Virus record (IMG/VR): IMGVR_UViG_3300048536_000071
Location: 1 to 35,556 of that record
Length of the DNA: 35,556 nucleotides
Origin: a virus
Direction: 5' to 3' (one strand)
The position numbers were made by a program, and so were the translations under genes. A model generated the notes under the pieces. That model was not told the DNA's origin. It worked only from the letters and a program-made list of their open reading frames with translations, and ran no database searches. Shown here one piece after another: positions 9,322 through 19,014 of the stretch. How positions within the stretch are numbered: the first letter of the stretch is position 1; every line of letters begins with the position of its first letter.

Positions 9322-9618
9322 ATGGTAGATAAAAAGAAAGAGCAACCTCTTCTAAGTTTTCAAGATAAAGATGGAAACCCAAGAGAGATATTTGAGAAAG
9401 ACTTAACTGATTTGAATAGACCTTTAATTCAGCAGATTAGTCAAGACCTGGGAGCGCAACAACAACTTGAAGAGGCATTTCAATTAGCAACTAAAACTGT
9501 TCATCACATGGAAAGTGTTAGAAGAAATATTGCTAATACAATTGAAAAGCTAGAAGATGTTTTGCCACCTTACAAGAAACCAGTTGTAATTGAAGGTGCT
9601 GACAAGGTAGGTAAATAA
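9322..9618 (+). CDS. Conserved-context hypothetical protein, helical
   Basis: The 98-aa product is polar and mainly helical; residues about 35-85 could form a coiled coil (QLEEAFQLATKTVHHMESVRRNIANTIEKLEDV). No catalytic or metal motif is visible and I do not recognise a family. It is locked between the DUF2800 nuclease (2-base gap) and the Sak4-type ATPase (TAATG overlap), so it is probably a small partner in the recombination module. Confidence 0.6.
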   Translation: MVDKKKEQPLLSFQDKDGNPREIFEKDLTDLNRPLIQQISQDLGAQQQLEEAFQLATKTVHHMESVRRNIANTIEKLEDVLPPYKKPVVIEGADKVGK

Positions 9619-10403
9619 TGTCGTTAGCAGCAATACAAAAGAAAAGTAAAGCTAAAGCATCAATAACAATTATCTATGGCCCTTCTGGTCTTGGTAAAAC
9701 AACACTTGCTGTTGGTAGCAAAAACCCAGTCGTAATTCAAACTGAAGAGGGACTGGGAATTCTTACTAACAATAGGGACATAGCTCATTTTCCATTAGCA
9801 AAAGATTACGATACTTTTATTGGTTATCTTAGATCACTTGTTGATGCAGATGAACTTGAATACAACACATTGGTTATTGATTCATTAGATTGGTTAGAGC
9901 CATTAATACATCAAAAGACTTGTGAAGCACATAAGCAACCTTCAATAGAAAGTTTTGGTTATGGTCGTGGTTACAATGAGGCACTTAAGTATTTTAGAGA
10001 AGTCCTTGATTTAGTTAATAGATTAAGAAACGAAAAGAAAATGCGAGTAGTGTTGATTGCTCATAACCAAATCAAAGCGTTTCACGATCCAAGCACAGAG
10101 TCTTACGACAGGCATGAACTAAAGCTACATAAAGCAGCTTCAGCCTTGGTGTTGGAAGCAAGTGATATGTGTTTGTTTTTAAACTACAAAAAGGGAACGG
10201 TAAAAGTACAAGGCAATAAAGGATTAACAAGCAAAACTGTTCAGTCTGGAAGAGTCTTAGTTACTACTGAGTCACCTGCATGTGTAGCTAAAAACAGATA
10301 CGGTTTACCAGAAGAGATACAAGTAATTGATGAAGGTGATGACTTCATTGTTAGAGCTGAGAAAACTTGGGCTGAGATTGGAAAGCTAATCGCTAAGAAA
10401 TGA
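9618..10403 (+). CDS. Sak4-type RecA-like ATPase (AAA_24), single-strand annealing
   Basis: The 261-aa protein has a Walker A motif GPSGLGKTT (21-29), a Walker B-like strand TLVIDSLDWLE (about 81-91) and a later strand MRVVLIAHNQ, matching compact RecA-fold ATPases of phage Sak4/AAA_24 type. These support annealing recombination with a phage SSB. The context fits: nuclease upstream, DUF669 SSB downstream. The ATG overlaps the preceding stop, and its own stop overlaps the next ATG (ATGA). Confidence 0.85.
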   Translation: MSLAAIQKKSKAKASITIIYGPSGLGKTTLAVGSKNPVVIQTEEGLGILTNNRDIAHFPLAKDYDTFIGYLRSLVDADELEYNTLVIDSLDWLEPLIHQKTCEAHKQPSIESFGYGRGYNEALKYFREVLDLVNRLRNEKKMRVVLIAHNQIKAFHDPSTESYDRHELKLHKAASALVLEASDMCLFLNYKKGTVKVQGNKGLTSKTVQSGRVLVTTESPACVAKNRYGLPEEIQVIDEGDDFIVRAEKTWAEIGKLIAKK

Positions 10404-13332: not shown

Positions 13333-14472
13333 TTGAATGTTTTAAGTTTGTTTGATGGTATGAGTTGTACGCGTATAGCTCTTGAAAGGCTAGGTATTGA
13401 TGTTAATCATTATTATGCAAGTGAAATTGATAAATACGCTATGAAAGTTAGCGAAGAAAATTATCCAGATATTATACAAATAGGTGATGTTACTGATTGG
13501 CAGTCCTGGGATATTGATTGGAGTTCTATTGATTTAGTTATTGGTGGTTTCCCGTGTCAATCTTGGTCACTAGCTGGTAGGCAGTTAGGCGATAAAGATG
13601 AAAGAGGTAAATTGTTCTGGGTAATGTTAGATGTAATGAAAAAGGTTATAGAAAATAACTCTAATGCTTATTACTTAATGGAGAACGTAAAGATGAAAAA
13701 AGAGTTTGAAGAATATATTACTTTTCATACTGAACAGGCTTTACCAAATGTAAATAAGTATTTAATTAATTCAGCGTTAGTATCAGCACAAAACAGGGTT
13801 AGATATTATTGGACAAATATTCCTGGAGTTGAACAGCCTGAACAAAGAGGCATGGTTTTAAGAGATATATTAGAAAACAAAGAGATAGATGGATTGTCTG
13901 AAAAAGCAATTGCATACATGAATAGAGGTAGTGAGAAATGGTCGGGTGGGAAAAGCAGAGCTGAACATTACATAAAACATGAAAGCAAAAAGTCTAATTG
14001 TTTAACAGCAAATATGCACAAAGGCGTTCCTTATGGTGTTATTGCGATTGATAAACCAATCCAGGTGGGTGAAGCTATAGATATAAATGGTCACGACATA
14101 TTAAAAAGAGTTTATTCAGAAGATGGTAAATCACCAACTCTTAATACTTGTACGGGTGGAAATAGAGAACCAAAAGTATTAGCTGGTGCGTGGCGAGGAA
14201 GATACAAAGCTGATGGCAGCACCGAGCAAAAGCTAGAAGTAAGAAGGGGAGGAAAAACCAACTCATTAACAACGGTGCAAAAAGATAATGTTGTTGTTAA
14301 AGATGAAGTTTATTGGCGAAAGCTCACCCCGATTGAGTCCGAAAGATTACAAACAGTTCCAGATAATTATACAAACCATGTATCAAATACTCAGCGTTAT
14401 AAAATGTTGGGTAATGGATTCACGGTTGAAGTAATTTGTCATATTTTAAATAACATGGAGAAAAAACAATGA
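13333..14472 (+). CDS. dcm: DNA (cytosine-5) methyltransferase
   Basis: The 379-aa enzyme shows C5-methyltransferase motifs in order: I (LSLFDGMSCTRIALE, residues 4-18), IV (GGFPCQSWSLAGRQ with catalytic Cys75), VI (Glu117-Asn-Val), VIII (Gln153-Asn-Arg) and X (LGNGFTVEV near the end). The target-recognition region (about 200-325) holds three similar segments (NCLTANMHKG, SPTLNTCTGG, NSLTTVQKDN). No partner restriction gene is visible, so self-protection or regulation is more likely than a restriction-modification pair. The start is TTG 13333 with GGAG 8 bases upstream. Confidence 0.93.
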   Translation: MNVLSLFDGMSCTRIALERLGIDVNHYYASEIDKYAMKVSEENYPDIIQIGDVTDWQSWDIDWSSIDLVIGGFPCQSWSLAGRQLGDKDERGKLFWVMLDVMKKVIENNSNAYYLMENVKMKKEFEEYITFHTEQALPNVNKYLINSALVSAQNRVRYYWTNIPGVEQPEQRGMVLRDILENKEIDGLSEKAIAYMNRGSEKWSGGKSRAEHYIKHESKKSNCLTANMHKGVPYGVIAIDKPIQVGEAIDINGHDILKRVYSEDGKSPTLNTCTGGNREPKVLAGAWRGRYKADGSTEQKLEVRRGGKTNSLTTVQKDNVVVKDEVYWRKLTPIESERLQTVPDNYTNHVSNTQRYKMLGNGFTVEVICHILNNMEKKQ

Positions 14473-15180: not shown

Positions 15181-15615
15181 TTGAAAGAACAAAAATGGTG
15201 GTTGGTCATAGAAGCAATTGAGAAGCCCGAGAAGAGTGGGTTAATAAAGTTTGGGGTGGCAATGAAGTATAAAAGCTATTCAAAACTCAAAAAGGTTGTC
15301 TGGAAGTGGTATAAAAAGCAGTTGGGGAGAACTGATATTAAGAGTCGGGAGAAGTTGGTATTGTATGCTCTTTGTGAAAGGTATTCAGCACAAGACTATT
15401 CTAGCCATGATGCGGTTAGCTACTTGGCGTTAATGATTGGTATGCACAGACACACGGTTAGTAAAGGTATTCAGAATTTGATGGATTTAAATATTATTTG
15501 GTGTGCTATTGATGGGGAGAAGAAAGTATTGCGAAGCCTAAAAGCAGGAGTGCAACATAAGCATTTTTTGTTTGTTGGTTTGGGTGTGATGTTAGAGGAA
15601 AGCCAAGAAGGGTGA
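15181..15615 (+). CDS. HTH_36-like protein, possible replication initiator or regulator
   Basis: This reading frame of up to 144 aa has a helix-turn-helix region at about 60-105 (REKLVLYALCERYSAQ, then VSYLALMIGMHRHTVSKGI), as in phage replication-initiator and DnaD/HTH_36 proteins. The N-terminus is aromatic and basic. The start is uncertain: TTG 15181 abuts the previous TAG, while ATG 15262 (MKYKSYSK) would give 117 aa. Its closeness to the 23-bp iterons supports an initiator role. It ends inside a long inverted repeat. Confidence 0.6.
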   Translation: MKEQKWWLVIEAIEKPEKSGLIKFGVAMKYKSYSKLKKVVWKWYKKQLGRTDIKSREKLVLYALCERYSAQDYSSHDAVSYLALMIGMHRHTVSKGIQNLMDLNIIWCAIDGEKKVLRSLKAGVQHKHFLFVGLGVMLEESQEG

Positions 15616-15657
15616 TTACTTTAGGGGGAGTTGATAATATCACCCTCCAAGGCTTTC
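15598..15657. terminator. Long inverted repeat between convergent operons
   Basis: GAAAGCC (15598-15604) and AGGGTGAT (15609-15616) pair with ATCACCCT (15639-15646) and GGCTTTC (15651-15657): two perfect arms of 7 and 8 bp separated by a 4-base internal loop, with a 22-base apical loop. It sits where the rightward HTH genes meet the leftward small-gene operon, so a bidirectional terminator or transcript-end element is likely. T-tracts are lacking. Confidence 0.55.
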
Positions 15658-15664
15658 TGATCGG

Positions 15665-15826
15665 TTAAAGTTCTTGTTTAATTAATTTTACATAAAGCTC
15701 ATGATCTTTTCTAGTCATCATGATTTCAACTCTTCGCATATTATCTTTTTTATCATTGCTGAATTTAGCGGTGATTCTTGAAAGTTCTGGGTACTTTCGT
15801 TTTAAGTATTTCATGTCTTGCTTCAT
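15665..15826 (-). CDS. Small basic protein, 53 aa (last gene of leftward operon)
   Basis: ATG at 15826 (minus strand) opens 53 codons to TAA at 15665-15667. The product starts MKQDMKYLKRKYPELSRI and ends EIMMTRKDHELYVKLIKQEL; it is basic and helical. GGAAAG precedes the start, which overlaps the stop of the upstream 31-aa frame (ATGA). No family is recognised. Confidence 0.6.
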   Translation of the reverse strand: MKQDMKYLKRKYPELSRITAKFSNDKKDNMRRVEIMMTRKDHELYVKLIKQEL

Positions 15827-15918
15827 AGTCTTTCCGTAAATAGTAAAATTAATAATTGTATCTGGTCATTTCTTAGACCTCTCAAATGCTTTGGTATTGT
15901 TCGCCTATCTATTTTCAT
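15823..15918 (-). CDS. 31-aa micro-ORF
   Basis: ATG at 15918 opens 31 codons (MKIDRRTIPKHLRGLRNDQI...), ending with TGA that overlaps the next ATG. The start lies inside the end of the upstream gene and AGGTG stands 7 bases before it. The paired overlaps suggest real translation, at least as a coupling device. It is very short and its function is unknown. Confidence 0.45.
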   Translation of the reverse strand: MKIDRRTIPKHLRGLRNDQIQLLILLFTERL

Positions 15919-16156
15919 AAAATTCACCTGTTAATCTTGTTCTGATATGGTTTTTAGTCCATTTAAAGTCTTCTAGACAATAACCCTCTTCACATTCTCC
16001 AAAAGTGTCATATAGGTTATATTGGATAACTTCATTTGGGTTGTCATTAAAAAGTATAAATAGATATTTGCCGACTTTTTTGCATTTGATAATCTCTGAT
16101 ACATCCATCATTTGCCCTCTATTGCCTAGCCATTGTATTGCTTCGTTTTTACTCAT
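15905..16156 (-). CDS. Hypothetical protein, 83 aa (leftward operon)
   Basis: The preferred start is ATG 16156 (MSKNEAIQWLGNRGQMMDVS), which has GAGGA about 8 bases upstream and overlaps the upstream stop by 8 bases; a longer frame reaches 16198 without a better site. The centre is beta-rich (KVGKYLFILFNDN) and the C-terminus is basic. Two cysteines (GECEEGYC) may be structural. No family is recognised. Confidence 0.65.
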   Translation of the reverse strand: MSKNEAIQWLGNRGQMMDVSEIIKCKKVGKYLFILFNDNPNEVIQYNLYDTFGECEEGYCLEDFKWTKNHIRTRLTGEFYENR

Positions 16157-16319
16157 TGTCTTGATCCTCGTTAGTGTTAATAATTTGTATTTGGTCATCC
16201 ATTAAAGGCAAATTAAATTCCCTTTCCCAAAGTTTACTTATCTGATCTTTTGCTTGGTCTATAGTTTCTGCTGTTACCTCGTATGACTGTTCAACAGTCA
16301 CTAATAATTCTATTTTCAT
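16149..16319 (-). CDS. Hypothetical small acidic protein, 56 aa
   Basis: The frame runs from ATG 16319 to TAA 16149-16151. The product starts MKIELLVTVEQSYEVTAETI and ends in NTNEDQDNE. The shape (one beta strand, a helix with DQAKDQISKLWE, an acidic tail) is like small DUF proteins that fold as strand-helix units. It overlaps the micro-ORF upstream by one base (TAATG) and the next gene by eight. GAGG lies about 10 bases before the ATG. Confidence 0.6.
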   Translation of the reverse strand: MKIELLVTVEQSYEVTAETIDQAKDQISKLWEREFNLPLMDDQIQIINTNEDQDNE

Positions 16320-16414
16320 TATTCTTCATCCTCTTTGGTAATTATTAGATACGCGCCATGTAGGCAAAAAACCATAAATGAAAGCACGATTAAAACTTGT
16401 ATACAGTTAATCAT
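16319..16414 (-). CDS. 31-aa single-span membrane micropeptide
   Basis: ATG 16414 opens 31 codons to TAA 16319-16321. Residues 5-26 are almost wholly hydrophobic (IQVLIVLSFMVFCLHGAYLII), followed by a charged tail TKEDEE, so it should be a one-span inner-membrane peptide. A strong AAGGAG site lies 6 bases upstream. It overlaps the upstream gene by 8 bases and the next by 1. A role in host takeover, superinfection exclusion or lysis timing is possible but unproven. Confidence 0.6.
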   Translation of the reverse strand: MINCIQVLIVLSFMVFCLHGAYLIITKEDEE

Positions 16415-16706
16415 TGGTTTGCTCCTTGATTAGTTTTGCTTTTTTAAGGTAATCAATCGAAGTACCTCCATCCATTTCATTGGTTAGGTTAAACTGAACA
16501 GCATTACCCCATTCATCACAATTAAAATGCTTATTTGGTATATCTAACCTTATCCAAACATGAGTATTATTATCTTTTCTATCTATTGAAAAATTAACCA
16601 CAGTACCTTTTTGATTAGAAATATCTGTTTCATAACGGGTTACTAATGCAAAAGTTTCATTTGCAAATTTAACCCTATCGCCAATTTTAAGTTTATTAAC
16701 ATTCAT
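16407..16706 (-). CDS. Hypothetical SH3-like barrel protein, 99 aa
   Basis: The product opens KLKIGDRVKFANETFALV and continues with KGTVVNFSIDRKDNNTHVWIRLD, a strand pattern like small SH3/KOW-type barrels. The C-terminal third is helical. Start ATG 16706 overlaps the upstream TGA (ATGA), with AGAGG before it. Its binding partner is unknown. Confidence 0.6.
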   Translation of the reverse strand: MNVNKLKIGDRVKFANETFALVTRYETDISNQKGTVVNFSIDRKDNNTHVWIRLDIPNKHFNCDEWGNAVQFNLTNEMDGGTSIDYLKKAKLIKEQTND

Positions 16707-16897
16707 CTTTTAACCTCTCTTTGTTCTACTCGTTCCCATATATCGGAGAATCTGCTCAAAAATAAATATTGCTTTCTATTGTTGTAGTTTCCTACCGCTA
16801 ACGAATCAAGCACACACATCGGCTCTACATCGGGATTTTCTTTTAAAAAATTCTTATGAATGTCAATCATGTAATTAAGTAAATCAAATTTTTTCAT
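16703..16897 (-). CDS. Hypothetical protein, 64 aa (leftward operon)
   Basis: The product starts MKKFDLLNYMIDIHKNFL and is helical and charged, with one cysteine (VEPMCVLDSL). The start has GAGGAGG, formed by the last codons of the upstream gene 3 bases away, so the two are probably coupled. No family is recognised. Confidence 0.6.
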   Translation of the reverse strand: MKKFDLLNYMIDIHKNFLKENPDVEPMCVLDSLAVGNYNNRKQYLFLSRFSDIWERVEQREVKR

Positions 16898-16900
16898 TGT

Positions 16901-17068
16901 TTAACCCTCCTCGGCTTCTATACTTTCTCTTTCATTATCAACAACCCAATCAATAGAATTGTCATAATGCGCTTTATCTTCTGCATCTTCCCAATCTTTA
17001 GCCATTACATAAGATTCATATGATGTAGTTACTACCTTAGTTATTTTAAATTCTTTTATTGCTTCCAT
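16901..17068 (-). CDS. Small acidic protein, 55 aa
   Basis: ATG 17068 opens 55 codons (MEAIKEFKITKVVTTSYESY... ending ESIEAEEG). It is acidic, with an aromatic middle (DWEDAEDKAHYD). GGGGGT precedes the start. The leader around the start is copied almost exactly at 17397-17420 before another small gene, and both products begin MEAIK. Confidence 0.6.
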   Translation of the reverse strand: MEAIKEFKITKVVTTSYESYVMAKDWEDAEDKAHYDNSIDWVVDNERESIEAEEG

Positions 17069-17070
17069 AA

Positions 17071-17292
17071 TTACCCCCTAGTTAATGATTCTAAAATTGT
17101 ATTTTCTTTAAAATCATTATCTAGATGTTCTGCAAACATTTGCAGGCTATGAGTCATTCCATCTATATATTCTTTATTAAAAAAATGCTCTTGATTTTCT
17201 GTAACAAAATCTGACATTGTTTCTGTATAATTTACAAAATATTTGTGTAAGTCTGTATAACTTATATTTATTGTTTTGTTTGTGTTGCTCAT
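17071..17292 (-). CDS. Hypothetical protein, 73 aa (leftward operon)
   Basis: The preferred start is ATG 17292 (MSNTNKTINISYTDLHKYF), with AGGAG 9 bases upstream and an ATGA overlap with the 40-aa gene before it; a longer frame to 17346 lacks a site. The product is mostly helical and acidic (TENQEHFFNKEYIDGM, EHLDNDFKENTI). No family is recognised. Confidence 0.6.
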   Translation of the reverse strand: MSNTNKTINISYTDLHKYFVNYTETMSDFVTENQEHFFNKEYIDGMTHSLQMFAEHLDNDFKENTILESLTRG

Positions 17293-17411
17293 TGTGTTTG
17301 CTCCTGTAATTGTTTCTCTAATAGTTTTAAGATTTCCTCTTCCCAAATTTTACAATCCAGGCTTTTAACTCTTTTCTTGTAATGCTCTATAGCGTGTTTT
17401 ATTGCTTCCAT
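17289..17411 (-). CDS. Small helical protein, 40 aa
   Basis: ATG 17411 opens 40 codons (MEAIKHAIEHYKKRVKSLDC, then a leucine- and glutamate-rich helix ending QLQEQTQ). The whole chain could be one coiled-coil helix. It shares its start leader with the gene at 17068 and overlaps the next start (ATGA). Confidence 0.55.
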   Translation of the reverse strand: MEAIKHAIEHYKKRVKSLDCKIWEEEILKLLEKQLQEQTQ

Positions 17412-17419
17412 AATTACCC

Positions 17420-17518
17420 CTAGTTTTTTAGAAAATGATTAATTAAATAAGAGCCATGCCACGCTTTTCTGTTGCGTGGCTTCTCTATTAGTTTCTTTAT
17501 TAGTTGTTTAAATGTCAT
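17420..17518 (-). CDS. 32-aa basic micro-ORF over a hairpin
   Basis: ATG 17518 opens 32 codons (MTFKQLIKKLIEKPRNRKAW...), stopping at TAG 17420-17422. GAGGTG lies 7 bases upstream within the previous gene, which ends one base before the ATG. The frame includes an inverted repeat (GCCACGC 17458-17464, GCGTGGC 17474-17480) that could instead be an RNA element, so coding is only moderately supported. Confidence 0.45.
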   Translation of the reverse strand: MTFKQLIKKLIEKPRNRKAWHGSYLINHFLKN

Positions 17519-17519
17519 G

Positions 17520-17786
17520 CTATGCACCTCTCATGCTGTTGTTGAGCATTAGTTCTATGGCTTCATTGCTTAAGCCTTGCTCTTTGTTAAATTGGTTTAT
17601 CTCTTCTTGTGTCATCTCGTGATACTCAAAACCATTATTTGCTTTTAATGGGTAGTAGCCTTGCTCATAATCAACGATGACTATCGTTTGATTGTCTAGG
17701 TGTATTTCATTTCCATTGTATAAAGCAGTTCTTTTACCCTCTTCTTTTTTAAGTTCTATAGATGTCTTTAGGTTTCCTATTCTCAT
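17520..17786 (-). CDS. Hypothetical protein, 88 aa (leftward operon)
   Basis: The product starts MRIGNLKTSIELKKEEGKRT, has a beta-rich middle (NQTIVIVDYEQGYYPLKANNG) and a helical C-terminus (LSNEAIELMLNNSMRG). GAGGAG, supplied by the last codons of the upstream gene, stands before the ATG at a 2-base intergenic gap. No family is recognised. Confidence 0.6.
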   Translation of the reverse strand: MRIGNLKTSIELKKEEGKRTALYNGNEIHLDNQTIVIVDYEQGYYPLKANNGFEYHEMTQEEINQFNKEQGLSNEAIELMLNNSMRGA

Positions 17787-17788
17787 TT

Positions 17789-18001
17789 TTAATACTCCTC
17801 GTTGTCTCTCTCAACTGTAAATGTTGCAACTTTGTTGCCGTTAATATCGTTAGCCTTTCCGAAGTCGCTGATCTTAATCTTTGGTAATATGTTTTGTAAT
17901 ATTCTCTCAACTTCTACATGTTCAAATGTTGGGTTCTCTGAGTCTTCGCAGTGATTCCAAAAAGCTGAATTTCCTGTTTCTATATCAATAGTTATTTTCA
18001 T
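17789..18001 (-). CDS. Hypothetical protein, 70 aa (leftward operon)
   Basis: ATG 18001 (MKITIDIETGNSAFWNHCED) is preferred over the in-frame ATG at 18025 because GAGGTGG stands 6 bases upstream and the upstream gene stops one base before. The strand-helix-strand outline (MKITIDIETGNSAF ... FTVERDNEEY) resembles small phage DUF proteins, without a clear match. Confidence 0.6.
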   Translation of the reverse strand: MKITIDIETGNSAFWNHCEDSENPTFEHVEVERILQNILPKIKISDFGKANDINGNKVATFTVERDNEEY

Positions 18002-18002
18002 G

Positions 18003-18374
18003 TTACGCCACCTCTTTTGGTTCAAAGGATAAAATGATATTAGCCATAAAAGAAAAGTAGTTTTCTATAACTCTATCTTCCAAGGCTTCGCTTGGGTTCT
18101 CATCTATTGAACCCATGTCAATGGCTAGTTCTATAATGTCGGCGTATGTATAAGGGATATGAATTGCTAGACCGCCTAGCCAATCAGTCATTGCTGAATG
18201 TTTGCCTTGTCTCTCTACTAAAAAACCATACTCTGAATAAAACCTTTCAAATAGATAATTAATCTTTTCATCATCTGATAAATTCTTTCCAATTAGCTGA
18301 TCTTCATTTTCTATGCACTCAAGAATATAATTCTTATAATTCTTTTTGTATTTTGTGTGATGTAGTTTTGCCAT
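18003..18374 (-). CDS. Conserved phage hypothetical protein, first gene of leftward operon
   Basis: The 123-aa product contains SAMTDWLGGLAIHIPYTYAD followed by IIELAIDMGSIDENPSEALE, a pattern I associate with a phage family of unknown function (DUF6874-like; recognition by eye). The N-terminus is basic (KLHHTKYKKNYKNY). It has the best ribosome site of the region (AGGAGGTAACAAC) and lies directly behind the predicted leftward promoter, so it should be the most highly expressed gene of the operon. Confidence 0.7.
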   Translation of the reverse strand: MAKLHHTKYKKNYKNYILECIENEDQLIGKNLSDDEKINYLFERFYSEYGFLVERQGKHSAMTDWLGGLAIHIPYTYADIIELAIDMGSIDENPSEALEDRVIENYFSFMANIILSFEPKEVA

Positions 18375-18408
18375 GTTGTTACCTCCTAAAGTATTGTTTG
18401 ACTACCTA

Positions 18409-18436
18409 ATGATACACGAAAACCCTTATATCTCAA
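18409..18436 (-). promoter_or_regulatory. Promoter of the leftward small-gene operon
   Basis: On the minus strand TTGAGA (18436-18431) and TATCAT (18414-18409) are 16 bases apart, placing the start near 18402, about 27 bases before ATG 18374. It lies back to back with the late rightward promoter region. Confidence 0.5.
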
Positions 18437-18464
18437 GTAGTTAGCATAAAAAACTTAGGGTTTT
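18419..18464. repeat. Inverted repeat between divergent operons
   Basis: AAAACCCT (18419-18426) and AGGGTTTT (18457-18464) form 8-bp arms 30 bases apart in the divergent gap. They flank the -35 of the leftward promoter and overlap the presumed -35 of the rightward one, so a looped or two-site operator is plausible. Confidence 0.4.
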
Positions 18465-18516: not shown

Positions 18517-19014
18517 ATGGAGCAAAAAACACCCAAAAAAGACAATAAACCTATAAAAAAAGTAGGTAGAAAAAGGATTGATATTGATCTAGAGCAAGTA
18601 GAGAACTTAGCATCAAGAGGACTAGGAACGACTCAAATTGCCCGTGCTTTGGGCGTTTCATGGTCAACTATAGACCGCAACAGAAAACGATCTGCGGAAT
18701 TTGAGGAGACTATAAAAAGGGGAAAGGCGAAGGGACTTGCCCAGGTGACAAATTCCCTGTTCACTTCCGCCACTGATGGCAACGTTACCGCCCAGATATT
18801 TTACTTAAAGAATCAAGATGCGAAGACATGGAAAGACCGAGTCGAAAATGTCCATGCAACTATCAACCTTAATGATGTTCTAAGCGGTGCAAAAGAAAGA
18901 CTTGGCAAATATACGGCGAATGAAAAGAAACTAACAGAAATAAATCCTTTACCTACAACATCTAAGGAGATGAGCAGTATGGTAATTAATCAGACTGACA
19001 AGAAAAAGAAGTAA
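18517..19014 (+). CDS. terS: Terminase small subunit
   Basis: The 165-aa protein has a basic N-terminus, then an HTH of small-terminase type (LASRGLGTTQIARALGVSWSTIDR, about 30-53), followed by RSAEFEETIKRGKAKGLA and TDGNVTAQIFYLKNQ. This last pattern of HTH plus a helix ending in W-K is typical of terminase small subunits that recognise the packaging site. The nearest Shine-Dalgarno (AGGAG) is about 17 bases from the ATG, unusually far, and no other in-frame start is available upstream. Confidence 0.85.
   Translation: MEQKTPKKDNKPIKKVGRKRIDIDLEQVENLASRGLGTTQIARALGVSWSTIDRNRKRSAEFEETIKRGKAKGLAQVTNSLFTSATDGNVTAQIFYLKNQDAKTWKDRVENVHATINLNDVLSGAKERLGKYTANEKKLTEINPLPTTSKEMSSMVINQTDKKKK

Follow-up and report, generated by a model that had tools for sequence, protein, structure and literature searches.

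In P2/P4-type phages, diversity hotspots are high-turnover loci of about 1-5 kb that lie between two conserved phage genes and play a part in the arms race (Rousset et al. 2022, PMC9122126). We describe here a locus of this kind in a phage genome of 35,556 bases, the complete IMG/VR virus record IMGVR_UViG_3300048536_000071, which we call the window; the locus is a leftward island of 14 small genes (g1 to g14, positions 15665-18374). Whereas the P2/P4 hotspots carry defence systems against other phages, the cargo here consists of as many as 15 tiny genes in a single operon, with anchors that stay constant and one slot of counter-defence type, in an uncultivated marine group. We class the island as a phage diversity hotspot that is more finely organised, into slot and anchors, and that has a counter-defence occupant in many relatives. 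We think it probable, with reservations given below, that it is a modular hypervariable cassette locus whose first position, slot A, is a counter-defence slot, and that g1 sits there as an anti-defence protein. To an earlier note made from this DNA sequence (the original prediction), the slot-and-anchor layout, exchange at start codons and matching motifs at the island ends are additions.

Other described systems share some of these features. The early region of phage T7 opens with gene 0.3 (Ocr), and in at least 19 relatives of the window phage the promoter is likewise followed by an Ocr homolog as first large gene; unlike in T7, the slot in the window holds g1, which is unrelated to Ocr, the phage is of another type and the block runs leftward beside the terminase genes. 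In T4-type phages, the mobile regulatory cassettes known as PeSLs (Arbiol 2010 and Comeau 2014, as cited in PMC4503421) are likewise conserved intergenic regulatory strings that mark exchange points and are reused between unrelated genes, and some relatives of the window phage have a terminator-like stem-loop and a leader between the first two cassettes, but most exchange points here are linkers of 12-24 nucleotides (nt), made of ribosome site, stop and start, inside one operon. Anti-defence islands in plasmid leading regions (PMC11541004) also cluster small accessory genes at a fixed place, with anti-restriction genes in some members; here, by contrast, we see a phage, a single recognisable anti-defence family, a single promoter and a coupled operon. 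Lastly, Pelagibacter phage HTVC010P (KC465898) has a leftward block in which a g1 homolog (59%) comes first and tiny leftward genes come next, and the terminase genes of its linear record lie at the opposite end, but it otherwise has no detectable DNA relation to the window, and its g1 lacks the GAGGTGGC junction described below.

A fixed place with changing content

Searches with TerL and with replication genes gave 58 distinct contigs that include both flanks of the island. In all 58 it lies at the same place, between rep2 and the replication genes on one side and terS and the terminase genes on the other, always leftward and 0.5-3.4 kb long. Comparison across related phages for variable content, suggested by the original prediction, has thus shown gene content that varies at a constant location. 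Among 17 close relatives, a homolog is present in the other phage for 85% of left-flank genes and 95% of right-flank genes, as against 39% of island genes, anchors included; even in pairs with TerL at least 99% identical, the median Jaccard index of island families is 0.32. The islands of 18 close relatives hold 58 gene families, a number that is unsaturated. As in phage hotspots, a small locus between two conserved genes combines with high content turnover among close relatives. Four tiny genes nevertheless form near-constant anchors among these 18, namely g4 (18/18), g14 (18/18), g13 (16/18) and g10 (15/18). Gene counts come from a simple purpose-made gene caller, so that an isolated absence may reflect a gene that was not called; some gaps that lack a called gene do contain g10-like and g13-like sequence.

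In the window, 14 minus-strand frames of 31-123 codons tile the 2.7 kb, as had been claimed; in order of transcription they are:

18003-18374, minus strand: g1, the slot A gene, 123 amino acids (aa), phrog_11100, ratio of nonsynonymous to synonymous polymorphism (pN/pS) 0.35; its 3' end bears the slot junction GAGGTGGCGTAA
17789-18001, minus strand: g2, 70 aa, phrog_9027, variable, pN/pS 0.25
17520-17786, minus strand: g3, 88 aa, variable, pN/pS 0.04 (one pair only)
17420-17518, minus strand: g4, 32 aa, basic, constant anchor, pN/pS 0.37
17289-17411, minus strand: g5, 40 aa, no relative found
17071-17292, minus strand: g6, 73 aa, variable, pN/pS 0.28
16901-17068, minus strand: g7, 55 aa, acidic, variable, pN/pS 0.02
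16703-16897, minus strand: g8, 64 aa, variable, pN/pS 0.35
16407-16706, minus strand: g9, 99 aa, phrog_38216, variable, pN/pS 0.14
16319-16414, minus strand: g10, 31 aa, hydrophobic, anchor (41 of 58 islands), pN/pS 0.38
16149-16319, minus strand: g11, 56 aa, acidic, variable, pN/pS 0.54
15905-16156, minus strand: g12, 83 aa, variable, pN/pS 0.37
15823-15918, minus strand: g13, 31 aa, basic, anchor, pN/pS 0.30
15665-15826, minus strand: g14, 53 aa, basic, anchor (45 copies in 58 islands), pN/pS 0.22

The spacings from g1 to g14 are 1, 2, 1, 8, -4, 2, 3, -4, -8, -1, -8, -14 and -4 nt, so that the description of almost all genes as overlapping was slightly overstated: 7 of the 13 neighbours overlap and the other 6 are spaced by 1-8 nt. 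A clear G-rich ribosome site stands at 13 starts; g14 has GGAAAG only. Because pN/pS in relatives is 0.02-0.54 for 13 of the 14 genes, these are selected proteins and not chance frames; purifying selection is also seen in every tested family outside the window, and g5 has no relative in any fetched locus. The statement that only g1 resembles a known phage family was inexact: g2 (1e-7) and g9 (2e-5) also match PHROG families, and the families of all three are of unknown function. Scans with Pfam and PHROG of 10 of the 14 window genes, and with Pfam, PHROG and partly NCBIfam of 123 other island proteins, assigned almost no function, and no known defence system emerged from these libraries, among which PADLOC was not searched. 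Weak single Pfam matches (such as UL20, SWIRM and nSTAND3) are likely due to chance. We note that g4 contains a hairpin (GCCACGC..GCGTGGC, z -3.9), and that one relative (L063, in our numbering of loci) has a different hairpin-like sequence at the same position. A g10-type hydrophobic peptide of 28-33 aa is retained in most islands across the group; g10 looks like one membrane span and is possibly a tiny membrane protein.

The window phage is an integrase-bearing marine phage with an epsilon15-like terminase, and the island is a minus-strand block between a rightward replication block and a rightward terminase block. Families recognised in the genome include a tyrosine integrase, a small HTH_17 gene, two PD-(D/E)XK-type nucleases (one of them DUF2800), a Toprim/AAA protein, a C5-cytosine methylase and the epsilon15-like TerL. 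The methylase gene (13333-14472) adjoins the replication genes and may be the phage's own shield against restriction. When the host was sought by searching bacterial genomes with TerL, the best match was only 41%.

Slot A and its occupants

Most members of the group have the leader TACTTTAGGAGGTAA ahead of their first large gene, which usually ends in GAGGTGGC(A/G)TAA, which provides the last codons of the slot A gene and simultaneously the ribosome site of the next gene. Unrelated slot A proteins end in (K/E)VA because this exit junction doubles as a ribosome site; we rejected a protein signal, such as a degron, as the main cause of these tails, as slot A genes that end earlier keep the linker outside the frame. 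At least 14 families occupy slot A behind one leader. HHalign comparison of these families (91 pairs) gave a best probability of 10%, against 100% and 76% for positive controls, and we therefore also rejected the idea that the occupants are diverged alleles of one family.

One of these families is Ocr-like. Its member in relative L105 matches PHROG 2568, annotated as ocr-like anti-restriction (E=3.6e-7), and aligns with T7 Ocr by blastp at 24% identity over 91 aa; the family profile matches T7 Ocr by HHalign at 76% (E 2e-5), and the first 8 PDB matches of a structural model of the protein (pLDDT, the predicted local distance difference test score, 85) are all T7 Ocr, with probabilities of 0.47-0.99. 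The family was found in 23 loci by search, and in at least 19 of these the gene heads the same island beside the homolog of the gene at 18517-19014, from which 0-2 small genes separate it; the exit junction is the same in most of them. In these marine phages (L181-L202), the region aligned with VPHYYADIF of T7 Ocr reads VPIYNYDLL, so that F54, which is changed in mutants that escape the PARIS defence system (PMC9122126), is not kept.

Paired loci place g1 and the Ocr-like gene at the same position. L005 (with g1) and L190 (with the Ocr-like gene) share 93% identity in the 87 nt that precede the start codon and diverge after it. L009 (g1) and L194 (Ocr-like) align over 689 nt at 90% identity, and the match stops no more than 2 nt from the start. 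Since swaps between the two genes break at the start codon, g1 and the anti-restriction protein are alternative occupants of one slot. The two are not detectably related: HHalign gives 2.7% probability for g1 against the Ocr-like family, and no Ocr appears among the structure matches of g1, whose AlphaFold2 model is of five helices (pLDDT 92.5). Homologs of g1 also occur in phages with other terminases (L006-L038 and KC465898), often beside similar blocks of tiny genes, from which we conclude that g1 itself travels between phage groups.

Mainly because g1 and the Ocr-like protein alternate in one slot, g1 is probably an uncharacterised anti-defence protein. Family scans recognise an anti-defence gene, the Ocr-like one, in relatives and none in the window. 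What was first proposed as an island for host takeover or anti-defence is thus supported in part, as a variable accessory island, likely for counter-defence, given its extreme turnover between near-identical phages and the Ocr homolog that relatives have in the first slot.

Junction exchange and the island ends

The nearest variant of the window island (L004/L039) is 94-95% identical on both sides, yet g2-g3 are replaced, g5-g6 are missing and g8-g9 have given way to one gene of 202 aa. In this variant g4 is joined directly to g7, and in the window g5-g6 are bracketed by two perfect direct repeats of 24 bp:

17397-17420, minus strand: repeat copy 1, linker and start of g5
17054-17077, minus strand: repeat copy 2, linker and start of g7

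The breakpoints of exchange fall at start codons, within short ribosome-site linkers that are reused between unrelated genes. Where all four genes of a pair of junctions differ, 0.62% of the pairs have an exact 14-mer in common; the positional Markov control gives 0.02%, and of 7,260 gene-body pairs none shares one. Because recurrent junction strings (such as GGAGCAAACCAATG, AGGTGGCGTAATG and TAGGGGGAATTATG) are found between unrelated genes and only in islands, recombination in the linkers is the likely route of exchange. Single-strand annealing proteins (SSAPs) promote recombination of diverged sequences (PMC5499656), and Sak4 annealed oligonucleotides at up to 20% divergence (PMC5928155), which makes the phage's own Sak4-type annealing protein (9618-10403; family AAA_24, PF13479, equated with Sak4 in PMC8093625) a plausible agent, one that probably aids recombination in the linkers. 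We do not find a promoter and stem-loop at each exchanged junction, as PeSLs would have: among 515 neighbouring gene pairs the median spacing is -4 nt, and a hairpin junction is present in about 14 relatives only.

Beyond its junctions, the island has conserved ends:

18409-18436, minus strand: island promoter, -35 box TTGAGA from 18436 and -10 box TATCAT to 18409 with a 16 nt spacer, from a consensus scan
18382-18393, minus strand: leader and ribosome-site motif TACTTTAGGAGG ahead of slot A, 65 copies in the islands of 58 relatives
15598-15657, no strand assigned: closing stem-loop between convergent genes, overlapping the end of the rightward gene 15181-15615
15617-15628, plus strand: end motif TACTTTAGGGGG, within the loop of this structure; relatives have 45 copies at the left end and none elsewhere

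That the island has its own promoter gains support from the conservation of the promoter region and leader in relatives, but not from the scan, whose score is no better than in shuffled DNA. An imperfect palindrome surrounds the -35 box (18415-18440; TACTTGATATATAAGTA in relatives) and is a possible operator for some regulator. The long inverted repeat said to end the operon is real (-26.9 kcal/mol, z -5.7) and conserved, being retained in relatives with changed stem pairs; it has no U-tract and is therefore not a canonical intrinsic terminator.

The leader motif and the end motif are the sole exact matches to TACTTTAGGRGG in the window, and in relatives TACTTTAGGAGG (65 times) and ACTTTAGGGGG (45 times) are always at the island and are absent from 395 kb of flanking sequence. 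On the island transcript, the end motif reads as antisense to the leader motif and first ribosome site and, as the left copy sits in the closing loop, the 3' end of the transcript would expose a sequence that might pair with that site. The predicted duplex has a median energy of -22.8 kcal/mol, whereas random island stretches give -14.6, with 1% of these controls as low as -23.8; both motif copies are altered together in L103 (TAC to ATC), and an A-C mismatch is retained in most pairings. We rejected pairing of the ends as a general feature, since it is absent both from the short-island group and from the group with TerL of about 85%, which has a different leader, and we rejected inversion between the inverted motifs, there being no inverted island in the 58 contigs. 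The matching motifs may reflect RNA control, a DNA inverted repeat or a relic. A more speculative idea, to which we give little credence, is that the C-rich 3' loop CCCCCUAAAGUA pairs with the slot A leader ribosome site UACUUUAGGAGG, in cis or as a small RNA derived from the 3' end, and so shuts the first genes after a burst whatever the slot protein; the island would then be a plug-in rack of counter-defence proteins, and its slot A families, at least a dozen, new classes of defence inhibitor.

We also note that 14 relatives (L047, L048, L049, L080, L122, L129, L131, L138, L139, L141-L144 and L153) have an extra cassette of 55-98 aa before slot A. Cassette and slot A are separated there by a conserved element of about 80 nt, consisting of a terminator-like hairpin (GCCCGC-TTAT-GTGGGC TTTTT) and a second leader copy, which is absent from the window.

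What the island may do

On the reading that we favour, a counter-defence cassette island, the conserved promoter and leader would drive a leftward operon of tightly coupled small genes in which the anchors g4, g10, g13 and g14 would stay while the genes between them were swapped. Swaps would break at start and stop junctions, with shared ribosome-site linkers supplying the homology and the Sak4-type protein probably helping. Right behind the promoter, slot A would hold a DNA-mimic anti-restriction protein of the Ocr type in many relatives and, in the window phage, g1, most likely blocking some host defence with a different fold; other genes of the island may have anti-defence roles as well. 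PARIS is known to sense T7 Ocr (PMC9122126). Because host defences vary between cells and PARIS is triggered by Ocr, switching occupants could pay for the phage, which we offer as reasoning and not as a finding.

Several points weigh against this reading. Among the 14 slot A families just one can be recognised, and its Foldseek E-values for Ocr are weak (0.2-1.5). Many occupants are acidic but not all, and as families F7 and F44 are not, not every occupant can be a DNA mimic. The scans found no relative of g1 with an assigned function; its model matched no solved structure, and its matches in a viral structure library are uncharacterised phage proteins. The relatives are metagenomic assemblies, early expression of the island is a prediction, and other arms-race or host-adaptation roles would fit the hypervariability too.

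Among such roles, the island could instead serve host takeover or metabolic rewiring, with small proteins that inhibit or redirect host RNA polymerase, replication or division, turnover that tracks host species, and Ocr as one protein among many. Small, mostly unknown proteins expressed from one promoter are typical of takeover regions. T7 Ocr also inhibits host RNA polymerase, according to work cited in PMC7261183, and structures of Ocr with RNA polymerase are among the PDB matches. The only recognisable occupant family, however, is best understood as anti-restriction and anti-BREX (PMC7261183), and content differs even at 99-100% TerL identity, between phages that probably share hosts. We consider this role possible but unlikely.

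We regard as improbable that the island controls immunity or lysogeny in a temperate phage, as a leftward operon at divergent promoters with hypervariable repressor-type and exclusion genes. The integrase and HTH_17 gene, the divergent promoters, the palindrome around the -35 box in relatives and a 31-aa hydrophobic g10 that could act in exclusion would all fit, but no helix-turn-helix family was found in the scanned island proteins of the window or the scanned slot A occupants, and the g1 model has no DNA-binding match. Neutral accumulation of orphan genes at an insertion-tolerant spot, with no common function, would account for the many families that match nothing and for the lack of relatives of g5, but is very hard to credit, being already contradicted by purifying selection (pN/pS) in 13 of 14 genes and all tested outside families and by the fixed slots and conserved leader, anchors and stem-loop.

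If slot A is the counter-defence slot that we favour, candidate anti-defence proteins in this phage group can be found by address and not by homology, as whatever is encoded from the leader TACTTTAGGAGGTAA (or TACTTTGGAGAAGTAA) to the junction GAGGTGGCNTAA. The slot already offers at least 14 unrelated families, nearly all of unassigned function and directly testable in laboratory strains, one of which is Ocr-like. The island further provides a clear example from nature of operons that evolve through exchange at ribosome-site junctions among near-identical phages, and this exchange bears on how phages keep up with host immunity.

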